From contig QJYB01000096.1 in NCBI GenBank assembly GCA_003247835.1, positions 1-48,760 on the forward strand: a stretch of DNA of 48,760 bases, in the 5' to 3' direction. Source of the stretch: Gammaproteobacteria bacterium. GTDB lineage: Bacteria > Pseudomonadota > Gammaproteobacteria > Pseudomonadales > Azotimanducaceae. Shown piece by piece: positions 22,046 to 25,756 of this stretch. The notes under the pieces were generated by a model. The model was not told where the DNA came from. It saw nothing but the letters and a program-made list of their open reading frames with translations, and did no database searches. Numbering within the stretch: position 1 is the stretch's first letter; each line of letters starts with the position of its first letter. Made by a program: the position numbers and the translations under genes.

Positions 22046-22132
22046 GTCTCTCCCCCTGCAGGATCTCGAAGGTCGGACAGGGTAACGGGATTGCACGCGG
22101 CGGGCGAGGGTGGCGGTTTTAGACAGCCAGAC

Positions 22133-22150
22133 TGACGTGTTTGCACGTCA
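22133..22150. promoter_or_regulatory. Perfect inverted repeat upstream of the CHAD gene
   Basis: TGACGTG (22133-22139) and CACGTCA (22144-22150) flank a TTTG spacer, 17 bp before the CHAD start. It has the form of an operator for a dimeric regulator or of a small mRNA hairpin. It lies in the 121-bp divergent gap shared with the crotonase-like gene. Confidence 0.4.
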
Positions 22151-22166
22151 TCTGGACTGGGGTAAC

Positions 22167-23186
22167 ATGAACCGTTCCCCCCCGAAGACGGCTATCACTC
22201 CACAAGATCGGCGGAGGTCCGCTCGCGTGTACGGCCGCATGCAGTTTGCCGACTACGTCGTCAGCTGGGCGCTGCAATCCCTGTCCAGAAGCCTGCAGAG
22301 AGTAGGTGGGCGGTCCGGTCCTGCGCCGGTGGAGCTTCGCTGCAGCGACCAGAAGGCCCTGATCCAGACGGCTGAACGGGTTTTCTCCCTCTGGCAGATG
22401 GCACAGTGGTCGGTCTCGAAAATCGAGTTCAAGCGCGCCCAGAGCGATCTCACGGCCATCGTCGACCTGTGCGCCACGGATCAGACCCCGGAACGCCTGG
22501 CCGCGCTGCGGCTCATCGAGAAAGCGGAGCCCAGGCTCCACCCGTTGCTGGAGGACATTGCCGCGAGTCTGGTCCGACCGTCACCCGACCGGGAAACCCA
22601 GGCCCAGGTTCGGGATCAGCTGAACGGGCTGCTGCAGGCGGAATCGGTACGCTGGCGGACCTACACGCCGTTGCGGATCATCGACCAGTCGGAGCTGATC
22701 GAGCATGGAATGCTGCGTGCCTTCGAGAAAGCGCAGTCGCTGTCGATCCGGCTGGATGGGATCGCCGGGGAGCCGGAAAAGCGGGCCAGCGCCAAGCGGC
22801 TCGCCCGCACTGGCCGCTGGACCCATCACTGCGTCAATCACCTTGAACTTCTGCGCCCGGCGCTGTCTGAGACAGGCAGGACCCGACGCTGGCACCTGAC
22901 CCGGCTTGCTGCCAAGCTCGATGAGCAGTGGGCCCTGGAGAAGCTGGCCCGTGCGCTGGTGCTCATGGACCTTAAGCCGAAGGCGTCGGTACGCCTGGAT
23001 CGGCTCGTCGGCCACGAACGCAAGCGACTGGACAAACAGCGTCGCAAACTGACCATCGGTGCGTTTGCCGGTGGAGCTGTCGCCTACCGGGCAGAGGTGA
23101 CCGAGGCGGTAGCCCAGCTGGGTCTGGAGGCCATCACGCTGCTGCCTCTGGAAGGTGCGTCGAACAGCGAAAAGGAGACAGGGTGA
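22167..23186 (+). CDS. CHAD domain-containing protein
   Basis: 339 residues from ATG 22167 (an upstream GTG at 22110 would add 19). The protein is helical and rich in Arg, Lys and scattered His, for example HGMLRAFEKAQSLSIRLDG, TGRWTHHCVNHLELLRPAL and LDRLVGHERKRLDKQRRKL, matching the CHAD pattern of conserved histidines and basic helices. CHAD domains bind inorganic polyphosphate. The similarity is moderate, so the call is probable rather than certain. Its stop overlaps the start of the selenoprotein gene (GTGA), an unusual partner. Confidence 0.7.
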   Translation: MNRSPPKTAITPQDRRRSARVYGRMQFADYVVSWALQSLSRSLQRVGGRSGPAPVELRCSDQKALIQTAERVFSLWQMAQWSVSKIEFKRAQSDLTAIVDLCATDQTPERLAALRLIEKAEPRLHPLLEDIAASLVRPSPDRETQAQVRDQLNGLLQAESVRWRTYTPLRIIDQSELIEHGMLRAFEKAQSLSIRLDGIAGEPEKRASAKRLARTGRWTHHCVNHLELLRPALSETGRTRRWHLTRLAAKLDEQWALEKLARALVLMDLKPKASVRLDRLVGHERKRLDKQRRKLTIGAFAGGAVAYRAEVTEAVAQLGLEAITLLPLEGASNSEKETG

Positions 23187-23767
23187 GTACGGGGAGTCTA
23201 GGTTTACGAATGCTGGCCGTACTGGCAGCTGCCGTGCTGTCCGCAGTGAGCTGGGCGGACGATTTCGCGGACGCCTGGGGACCGTCGGTAGGCAGTCCGT
23301 TGCCCGTTCTGGAGGCCCCTGACCAGACCGGAACCCTTCGTACGCTGGACGACCTGTCCGGTGAGCAGGGTCTGCTGCTTTTCCTGAATCGTTCCGCCGA
23401 CTGGTGACCCTTCTGTCAGCGCCAGTTGGTCCAACTGGCACAGTGGCAGGATGCCTTCGAGGCAGTGGGCGTGCATGTTGCAGCGATGACCTACGATGAT
23501 CGAGAAGCCCTGGCGACTTTTCATGCTGCGCAGGGATTGCGTTACCCGCTGCTCCAGGATGTGGACGTGAAGCATGTGAACGCCTATGGCGTACTCAATC
23601 GGGACTACCACCCCGGCGATTCCGGCTACGGTATTCCCTACCCCGGCGTGCTCTACATCGGCCCCGACGGCGTGATACGTGCCAAGTTTGCGGTGCCCGG
23701 TTATCGGCAGCGGCCATCGTTCCAGGCCATGCTGGACGCCATCAACGACCTCCAGTCCGCGGACTAG
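23183..23767 (+). CDS. Selenocysteine-containing redoxin (AhpC/TSA-like), exported; UGA at 23405-23407 read as Sec
   Basis: One reading frame of 194 codons is interrupted only by TGA at codon 75. Upstream it encodes a signal peptide (LAVLAAAVLSAVSWA) and the redoxin start GSPLPVLEAPDQTGTLRTLDDL, then LLLFLNRSADW. Downstream it resumes without frame change as PFCQRQLVQLAQWQDAFEAVG, then VAAMTYDD, FHAAQGLRYPLLQDVD and YPGVLYIGPDGVIRAKF, a complete peroxiredoxin/thioredoxin fold. The TGA stands exactly where the family has the first Cys of W-C-P-F-C, giving U75-x2-C78. A SECIS-like hairpin follows at 23421-23439. GTG 23183 overlaps the CHAD stop; ATG 23210 is an alternative start. Likely a periplasmic thiol peroxidase or reductase. 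It needs selA, selB, selC and selD elsewhere in the genome. Confidence 0.9.
23421..23439 (+). promoter_or_regulatory. Bacterial SECIS-like stem-loop
   Basis: GCCAGTTG (23421-23428) pairs perfectly with CAACTGGC (23432-23439) around a GUC loop. The loop begins 21 nt after the UGA at 23405-23407, inside the 16-37 nt window known for bacterial SECIS elements, and its first base is G, as SelB recognition generally needs. It lies within the coding sequence, as expected in bacteria. Confidence 0.8.
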
Positions 23768-23781
23768 GCACCCAGCCGCGG

Positions 23782-23810
23782 TTGAACAAACCATCGTGCC
23801 TCGATTAAAT
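23782..23810 (+). promoter_or_regulatory. Candidate sigma-70 promoter of the TRAP operon
   Basis: TTGAAC (23782-23787) and TTAAAT (23805-23810) are spaced by exactly 17 bp, each matching consensus at four positions. The box pair lies about 46 bp before the TatT start, in the only gap of this operon. Confidence 0.5.
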
Positions 23811-23856
23811 GCGCCCGCATGACGCGCTAAGGTGGAAAACGCGTAATGAGGATCGC

Positions 23857-24741
23857 ATGGCGCGAATCGTTGTTCCGATGATGCCGGGACCTGCAGCTCG
23901 CAGGGTGTTCCTGCCGCTGATGCTGCTCTCCCTGTCAGGCTGCATGTCCATGGTTGCCTCGTTCACGGCGGGCTTCGCCAGGGATCTGGGCGATTCCATT
24001 CTCGACAGTCCGGACGTGCAGATGGTTCAGGAAGGCGCCCCAGCATACCTGCTGCTCGTCGACGCCATGGTCAAGAAGAACCCGGACAATGCCGAGCTGC
24101 TCGCCCAGTCTGCCCGTCTGAACTCGGCTTACGCGACCGCTTTCGTCAGCGATCCGGCGCGGGCGAAAATGCTCGCGGCGAACGCGCTCAATGACATGGG
24201 ACACGCGGTCTGCCTCAACATGAAGGACGGCTGCGAGCTCAGGACGCGACCCTATGAGGCGTACGAAGCGTGGCTCGCAAAGCGTACTGTGAAGGATGTG
24301 CCGGAGCTCTATCAGCTCGGCAGCGTCTGGGCTGGCTGGATTCAGGCCAACAGCGACGACTTTGCGGCCATTGCGGAGCTCGGTCGCGTCAAGGCACTGA
24401 TGGCCCGTGTGGCAGAGTTGGATCCGACCTACGACTATGGTGGTGCGTACCTGTATCTCGGGGTGTTCGAGACGCTGTTGCCGCCGAGTCTCGGTGGACG
24501 CCCGGAGGTGGGTCGGTCACACTTCGAGAAAGCCATCGAGATTTCAGACGGAAAATTCCTGATGGCGAAGGTGATGTATGCGGATCAGTATGCGCGCCTT
24601 ATGTTCGACCGGGAGCTGCACGACCGACTCCTCCATGAAGTCGTTGCTGCAGATCCCAACGTGCCGGGACTCACCCTGATCAATACGGTCGCGCAACAGC
24701 GGGCCGATGAACTGCTGGAATCTGCCGATGACTATTTCTGA
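23857..24741 (+). CDS. TRAP transporter T-component lipoprotein (TatT)
   Basis: 294 residues. A lipoprotein signal peptide ends in the lipobox LSGC with Cys29, so it is anchored to the periplasmic face of a membrane. The rest is helical, with repeat-like helices such as NPDNAELLAQSARLNSAYATAFV, RVKALMARVAELDPTYDYGGAYLYLG and GRSHFEKAIEISDGKFLMAKVMYA, as in TatT (T0957-like) proteins. These form rings and associate with the TRAP binding protein, probably for hydrophobic ligands. ATG 23857 follows GAGG. The DctP gene starts inside its last codons. Confidence 0.92.
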   Translation: MARIVVPMMPGPAARRVFLPLMLLSLSGCMSMVASFTAGFARDLGDSILDSPDVQMVQEGAPAYLLLVDAMVKKNPDNAELLAQSARLNSAYATAFVSDPARAKMLAANALNDMGHAVCLNMKDGCELRTRPYEAYEAWLAKRTVKDVPELYQLGSVWAGWIQANSDDFAAIAELGRVKALMARVAELDPTYDYGGAYLYLGVFETLLPPSLGGRPEVGRSHFEKAIEISDGKFLMAKVMYADQYARLMFDRELHDRLLHEVVAADPNVPGLTLINTVAQQRADELLESADDYF

Positions 24742-25756
24742 CCGGCTCAAGAGGAGCGCTTCCCGGACCGGATGGATCCCGTTGCTGTTCGGCTGCCTGC
24801 TCGCCGGGTCTGCGCAGGCGGTCACATTCAAGGTCGCCACGCTGTCACCTGATGGCTCGGGCTGGATGAAGATGCTGCGCGAAGGTGCTACAGAGGTGGC
24901 CGAGCGGACGGATGGACGCGTGACGTTCAAGTTCTATCCCGGCGGGGTGATGGGCGACGACAAGGCCGTGCTGCGCAAGATCCGTTCCGGGCAGCTGCAT
25001 GGTGCCGTGGTGACGGCAGGCGGCCTGAGTCAGGTCTACGGAGATATCCAGCTCTACACCCTGCCCATGGTGTTCAGAAATCTGGCGGAAGTGGATTTCG
25101 TCCGTGGTCGCATGGACAGCGTTCTGATGAATGGCCTGAGAGAGCATGGGTTCGTCGGCTTCGGCATAGCGGAGGTCGGTTTCGCTTACGCCATGTCGAA
25201 AGATCGCGTGGAGACTTTTGATGAGATCCGCGCGCAGAAGGTCTGGATTCCGGACGGTGATCCGGGTGCCGAAATGGCCATCAGCACCTTCGACATCACA
25301 CCCATTCCGTTGTCCATCGCTGATGTGCTCGGTGGTCTGCAGACTGGGCTCATCGACAGCGTGGCGGTGCCACCGGTCGGCGCCATTGCGCTGCAGTGGC
25401 ATACGCAGCTCAAGTACGTCTTCGATCTGCCGCTGCTCTACGTGTACGGGCTGTTCGTCGTTCGCGACCGCCAGTTCGACACGCTCAGCGCGGCGGATCA
25501 GGCGACCGTACTGGAAGTCATGGGTAAGGTGGTGGGGCGGGTCAACGCCCAGAACCGGATCGATCACGAGCGGGCGGTGGAGGTGCTCAAGACCCAGGGA
25601 CTCGACTTCGTCGTACCGACGCCGGAGGAGGCACAACGGTGGAAGGCCATGGCAGAGCAGGCCTCCGCGAAGATGATCGACGAAGGGGTGATCTCCCGGT
25701 CGCTGTACGAAGAGCTACAGAACGAGCTGGCGGAATATCGAGGCGGTCTTGACTGA
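24728..25756 (+). CDS. TRAP transporter substrate-binding protein (DctP family)
   Basis: 342 residues. The signal peptide ends at GSAQA, followed by VTFKVATLSPDGSGWMKMLREGA, the usual DctP start. The ligand carboxylate-binding region (EVGFAYAMSKDRVETFDEIRAQKVWIP) has Arg215-like positioning in RAQKVW but not the perfect dicarboxylate motif, in line with TatT-associated binding proteins that take up non-dicarboxylate, often lipid-like ligands. I start it at ATG 24728, overlapping the TatT end by 14 bp. It captures substrate in the periplasm for the DctQM channel. Confidence 0.93.
   Translation: MTISDRLKRSASRTGWIPLLFGCLLAGSAQAVTFKVATLSPDGSGWMKMLREGATEVAERTDGRVTFKFYPGGVMGDDKAVLRKIRSGQLHGAVVTAGGLSQVYGDIQLYTLPMVFRNLAEVDFVRGRMDSVLMNGLREHGFVGFGIAEVGFAYAMSKDRVETFDEIRAQKVWIPDGDPGAEMAISTFDITPIPLSIADVLGGLQTGLIDSVAVPPVGAIALQWHTQLKYVFDLPLLYVYGLFVVRDRQFDTLSAADQATVLEVMGKVVGRVNAQNRIDHERAVEVLKTQGLDFVVPTPEEAQRWKAMAEQASAKMIDEGVISRSLYEELQNELAEYRGGLD

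Follow-up and report, generated by a model that had tools for sequence, protein, structure and literature searches.

The two open reading frame fragments at positions 23183-23767 of the window, i.e., the whole 48,760-nucleotide stretch of DNA analysed here, very probably constitute one gene, in which an in-frame UGA is predicted to encode selenocysteine (Sec); the product is likely an exported enzyme of peroxiredoxin fold, with a predicted Sec-Pro-Phe-Cys site. We conclude that this is a real gene for a predicted selenoprotein, because the UGA is conserved in relatives, because a covarying SECIS-like hairpin follows it, and because the same genome holds two further redox or selenium genes with a UGA. 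The features discussed below are collected in Table 1.

Table 1. Position of the predicted selenoprotein gene, its elements and its neighbours in the window.
Feature	Position	Strand	Remarks
Upstream gene of 358 amino acids, labelled CHAD in the original prediction	22110..23186	+	No Pfam family
AAGGAG, likely ribosome-binding site for the redoxin GTG start	23172..23177	+	Sequence
Predicted redoxin selenoprotein gene, read through UGA	23183..23767	+	194 residues, AhpC-TSA family
Predicted signal peptide, residues 1-25	23183..23257	+	Hydrophobic N-terminus; cleavage near residue 25 by eye
In-frame TGA, predicted Sec codon	23405..23407	+	Codon 75, first position of U-P-F-C
SECIS-like hairpin	23422..23438	+	Six pairs, GU in apical loop
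TRAP transporter T-component (TAtT), downstream	23809..24741	+	PF16811, E 1.2e-76
TRAP substrate-binding protein DctP, downstream	24707..25756	+	PF03480, E 2.1e-30

The read-through product and its predicted chemistry

Translation of the frame places the GTG start codon at 23183, where it shares bases with the stop codon of the gene before it (GTGA), and a TAG stop at 23765-23767. Besides the TGA at 23405-23407, around which the residues read ...RSADW-U-PFCQRQ..., the frame contains no other lesion. A standard ORF list nevertheless divides the gene into a piece of 74 amino acids (23183-23407) and another of 113 (23426-23767), which is the kind of split that the original prediction expected of a gene caller; its joining of the two fragments into one redoxin gene also holds, as the coordinates, the frame and the codon number are correct. 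The AhpC-TSA family PF00578 matches the read-through product across the UGA, over residues 36-167, with an E-value of 4.3e-23 and a score of 82 bits, over the cut-off of 26.

Constraint seems to act before as well as after the UGA: in a comparison with locus L034, dN and dS are 0.19 and 1.61 upstream, and 0.23 and 1.11 downstream, with a usable dS missing in 7 of the 14 comparisons made. A genome-wide reassignment of UGA was considered and rejected. That is, TGA terminates 26 of the 32 long ORFs in the window (at least 200 amino acids, the longest chosen first; some may not be genes), and UGA is therefore not reassigned at large. Eleven UGA sites with a hairpin passed the screening rule in the window, and a redox motif is found at 23405 alone. 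No Rfam match over the gathering cut-off was found in the window or in locus L020.

The protein is probably exported, as had been proposed; this is predicted from its hydrophobic N-terminus, which, by a simple hydropathy rule, is shared by 59 of the 68 homologous loci with a TGA, the window copy included. The nine that the rule misses are L040, L054, L057, L079 (which is cut by a contig end), L106-L109 and L112. A lipobox-like Cys was noted by eye in L037, L049, L076 and L082.

A structure model of the read-through product (pLDDT 90.5) adopts a peroxiredoxin fold, closest to peroxiredoxins of the BCP/AhpE type, so that the oxidoreductase role preferred below is a tentative assignment. The same gene and the same Sec could also belong to a peroxidase, in which either Cys78 or Sec75 attacks the peroxide. 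The closeness of the fold to BCP/AhpE-type enzymes speaks for this, as does the alignment of Cys78 with a Cys of the BCP-type chain 2cx3, which we take to be the peroxidatic one. The signature of a classical peroxiredoxin active site is PxxxTxxC, however, and it is absent from the window protein, where Ser71 and Sec75 stand in place of Pro and Thr; the score with PRK09437, a thiol peroxidase model, is 38.2 bits, well below the required 140; and the W-C-x-x-C motif aligns with ResA, such that residue 75 falls on the first Cys of its CxxC. The motif found in the window protein is instead UxxC (U75-P-F-C78), standing where TxxC or TxxU would be; this motif is described in PMC1088965. We regard a peroxidase as a real but doubtful possibility, a judgement that concerns the function step alone and stands on a scale separate from that of the two alternatives considered further below.

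Our preferred model is that of a Prx-like thiol:disulfide oxidoreductase, not a classical peroxiredoxin. SelB with Sec-tRNA(Sec) would bind the hairpin after the UGA, and Sec would be inserted at codon 75 in place of termination. The N-terminal signal is predicted to direct the protein out of the cytoplasm. The selenolate of Sec75, at the start of helix 76-94, would make the attack within a U-x-x-C pair of thioredoxin type, and the Se-S bond would then be resolved by Cys78; the enzyme would in this way reduce disulfides or other oxidised thiols.

The UGA, its hairpin and its neighbours across relatives

The read-through protein was searched against 145 genomes, i.e., its own and those of relatives. 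By hand count, 62 genomes gave matches at E <= 1e-29. A single TGA interrupts the match in 59 genomes of family f1, its own (G000) included, and in G092, which belongs to another family; the G132 match is free of stops, and that of G018 contains a TAG and a TAA. In a class-wide sample of 369 genomes, few of them of the order, matches at E <= 1e-20 came from its own genome alone. TGA occupies the aligned position in 68 of the 70 loci compared, or in 67 of the 69 besides the window's own; this set combines 30 loci from the genome search (the window copy included) with 40 fetched in addition, contains some paralogues and some loci from the same genome, and leaves out weaker matches. The two exceptions are TGT (Cys) in G132 (L074) and TGG in G018 (L052). 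Among 11 loci from named organisms, the motif is absent from three, and the other eight encode W-C-P-F-C, with a Cys codon at the place of the TGA; these eight bear out the claim that the TGA sits at the first Cys of this motif in the family. L028 is a second, more distant Cys row, and the Cys rows total 10.

The hairpin pairs positions 18-23 with 29-34, the T of TGA being position 1, and it carries GU at positions 25-26, as do 62 of the 68 TGA loci. Across the set (68 TGA sequences, 67 of them distinct), 97.0% of 402 cells are paired, versus 82.1% in shuffles, and pairing drops to 10-44% when one side of the hairpin is slid. Covariation is 0.490, versus 0.192 in 500 shuffles, and 75 cells are changed on both sides, versus 26.2. 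None of the 500 shuffles reaches the observed values of pairing, covariation or two-sided cells; the relatedness of the sequences inflates the pair and covariation scores. Pairs with two-sided change (4) are hardly above the shuffles, 23 of 500 reaching that number, and further pair types (10) are matched by 364 of 500, so these are not above chance. Pair 18-34, for example, is CG in 27, GC in 15, AU in 9 and UA in 9 of 67 rows. In a synonymous recoding control, in which the protein is kept, 363 of 408 cells were observed at positions 19-24, versus 297.6 in the redraws (2000 redraws, sd 7.8, maximum 323). Pair 24-28 is present in just 31 of the 68 loci, and the apical loop therefore has three or five bases.

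Most Cys homologues lack this hairpin: among the 10 Cys rows, one makes five of the six pairs, one makes four, and the others two or three. The folding energies lend the predicted hairpin modest support, with z = -2.29 (41 nt) and -1.38 (54 nt) for the window; two relatives with Cys, folded in the same test as the 41 nt, gave z = +0.90 and +1.01.

The neighbours of the gene were surveyed at 68 loci, namely the 67 TGA loci besides the window's and L052. TAtT adjoins the redoxin in at least 25 of these and DctP in at least 23, while an enoyl-CoA hydratase lies near it in at least 15 (two at just 33-35% identity, one of them on the opposite strand). These counts are lower bounds, because most loci span about 1.5-2 kb per side; within these spans, none of the neighbours indicates a redox partner. 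A relative of the upstream gene adjoins the redoxin in at least 5 of the 68 loci, all of them close kin. The CHAD label given to that gene in the original prediction was not borne out, as its 358-residue protein matches no Pfam family at E <= 1.

Selenocysteine machinery and other UGA genes of the genome

The Sec machinery, whose complete absence would by the original prediction refute the selenoprotein reading, is found in part. The assembly of G000, which is 88.8% complete and comprises 129 contigs, contains selD, but nothing over cut-off for selA, selB or tRNA-Sec, and one of its contigs, C85, ends before the expected cluster. The best selB match (105.4 bits) and the best selA match (45.2 bits), both under cut-off, were taken as other elongation factors and as another PLP enzyme, respectively. 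Seven tRNA-Sec matches, all under the gathering cut-off, are Leu, Gly, Ser, Trp, Leu, Cys and Ser tRNAs.

These missing genes raise the question of whether Sec decoding was lost in this strain, in which case the UGA would terminate translation and the gene would be the recent remnant of a selenoprotein that other members of the family retain. We consider this improbable. To begin with, the assembly breaks beside the place where the cluster is expected. C85 aligns with the selA-selB-selC region of G002, a genome of the same genus, up to its last base, 19522; this end falls inside citrate synthase, and the start of selA in G002 corresponds to a point about 1.9 kb beyond it. In G001 and G003, too, selA is preceded by citrate synthase. 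The sel cluster of G000 most likely falls in an assembly gap. Both selB and tRNA-Sec occur in each of the three genomes of the same genus. Clusters of selA, selB and tRNA-Sec downstream of citrate synthase were seen in G002 (L125:7222-11029), G001 and G003; the families of the G002 cluster genes were confirmed, and tRNA-Sec is present in 5 of the 5 regions fetched. By hand count, selB is over cut-off in 73 of the 90 genomes of family f1 and tRNA-Sec likewise in 73 of 90, with a few of the tRNA-Sec scores close to it. A hand count also shows that at least one of selB and tRNA-Sec exceeds its cut-off in 53 of the 59 f1 genomes whose UGA redoxin matches at E <= 1e-29; the six in which neither does are G000, G020, G030, G049, G069 and G079.

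Two further genes of G000 stand against a loss of Sec decoding. The first is selD itself (L017:1501-2532 on contig C56; 362.3 bits), which has one in-frame TGA of its own, in the context S-R-T-C-G-U-A-A-K-I-S, presumably at the catalytic-Cys position of SelD. The hairpin CAGCUC-GGUC-GAGCUG follows it (z = -1.35). The second, a third UGA gene, encodes an AhpC-TSA redoxin (L141:1300-2079, minus strand, on contig C93) with the TGA in W-A-P-Y-U-G-C; its hairpin has the same offsets as that of the window redoxin, with GU in the loop (z = -0.57). A SelW-like Rdx protein (PF10262) was searched for in G000, and none was found. Among the genomes, selD with one TGA occurs in seven (G000, G001, G002, G005, G021, G050 and G082), and in most others of the family the selD domain forms part of a 600-800-residue frame. 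More than one UGA redoxin is present in several of the family's genomes. L106, L107, L108 and L109 are longer UGA redoxins that carry a U-P-P-C motif in frames some 390-450 residues long and lack a signal peptide.

A relic could also be suspected from G018, whose copy at this locus (L052:1501-2037, minus strand, on contig C49) is degenerate: the Sec codon reads TGG, and two more stops interrupt the frame. The hairpin of this copy still folds (z = -0.80), and it is flanked by the same kinds of neighbours as other redoxin loci. G018 has tRNA-Sec, no match over cut-off for selB or selD, and a UGA paralogue at another place (L106). A sense codon together with lesions, which the original prediction named as a sign of a pseudogene if seen in close relatives, is found in this copy alone, and a single degenerate copy does not argue against that of the window, where the frame is otherwise free of lesions and the hairpin intact. 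L052 does look degenerate; for the window copy, a pseudogene reading was rejected.

We give next to no credence to the idea that faulty sequencing or assembly turned a Cys codon into this UGA, or that the UGA marks a pseudogene, and for the family the idea is already refuted: a single TGA is indeed one base away from TGC or TGT, but TGA recurs in all but two of the other loci, followed by a hairpin that Cys homologues mostly lack, and the sequence is constrained on either side of it. Our reading remains that of a predicted selenoprotein, in agreement with the original prediction.

Significance and relation to known systems

The finding is notable in that the redoxin is conserved across most of one bacterial family and is truncated in databases. 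Among the 120 homologues listed (of 165), 74 miss the Sec column, starting at the equivalents of residues 79-85, and the column holds Cys in 32, Trp in 13 and Gly in one. The gene is thus an example of how databases lose UGA genes, the entries of its homologues beginning just past the Sec column. Trp is seen in P0002, P0009-P0016 and P0019 (ten by identifier, of the 13), and Gly in P0017; perhaps these residues reflect a TGA read by translation tables 4 and 25, or else they are true substitutions. Viral contigs were searched for the DNA behind a public relative that has Trp in this column, and none was found.

What is added is a lineage-wide predicted selenoprotein, probably located in the envelope, together with material for comparison, namely 68 TGA loci, 10 Cys rows and one degenerate copy, for asking what maintains Sec in an exported enzyme. 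It is conceivable, and perhaps close to an even matter, that family-wide Sec in the exported redoxin and the further UGA redoxins make up a selenium-based thiol redox system of the envelope; such a system would stay hidden from annotation because pipelines cut each gene at its UGA. The branch is not named among the selenoprotein-rich groups in the available portions of PMC5029168 and PMC13188914. The open-licence literature searched, as far as its accessible text goes, likewise contains nothing on selenoproteins of this lineage or on an exported Prx-like UxxC protein.

Redoxin-type selenoproteins themselves were already known, as the original prediction stated. In the accessible parts of these sources, a 'Prx-like protein' with a UxxC motif has been in print since 2005, from the Sargasso Sea set (PMC1088965), and the 'Prx-like 1' of GOS is a UxxC Prx-like selenoprotein (PMC2398784); 'Prx-like thiol:disulfide oxidoreductase' denotes the same printed class (PMC9312934, PMC13188914). 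The window protein therefore belongs to a known class. As that class is described in the text available, the two have in common PF00578, Sec in a thioredoxin-like UxxC, and the existence of Cys homologues; compared by description only, the window protein differs in its predicted signal peptide and in RSADWUPFC. By the same partial descriptions, the UGA gene on C93 resembles the printed 'UGC-containing Prx-like' selenoproteins.

The protein is also like the exported thiol-disulfide oxidoreductases of the ResA/TlpA type, in that their WCxxC position corresponds to W-U-P-F-C and in that it is predicted here to be exported; however, it scores 36.7 bits with the ResA model (PRK03147), against a cut-off of 170, and its overall fold is nearer to peroxiredoxins. 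From the BCP/PrxQ and AhpE peroxiredoxins it differs in lacking PxxxTxxC, with Sec at the Thr position. Lastly, the SelL-related model NF040769, which outscores every other NCBIfam model on the Cys relatives P0003 and P0006, matches the window protein weakly over residues 41-137 (37.3 bits, against a cut-off of 120). The motif of SelL is UxxU, whereas that of the window protein is UxxC.
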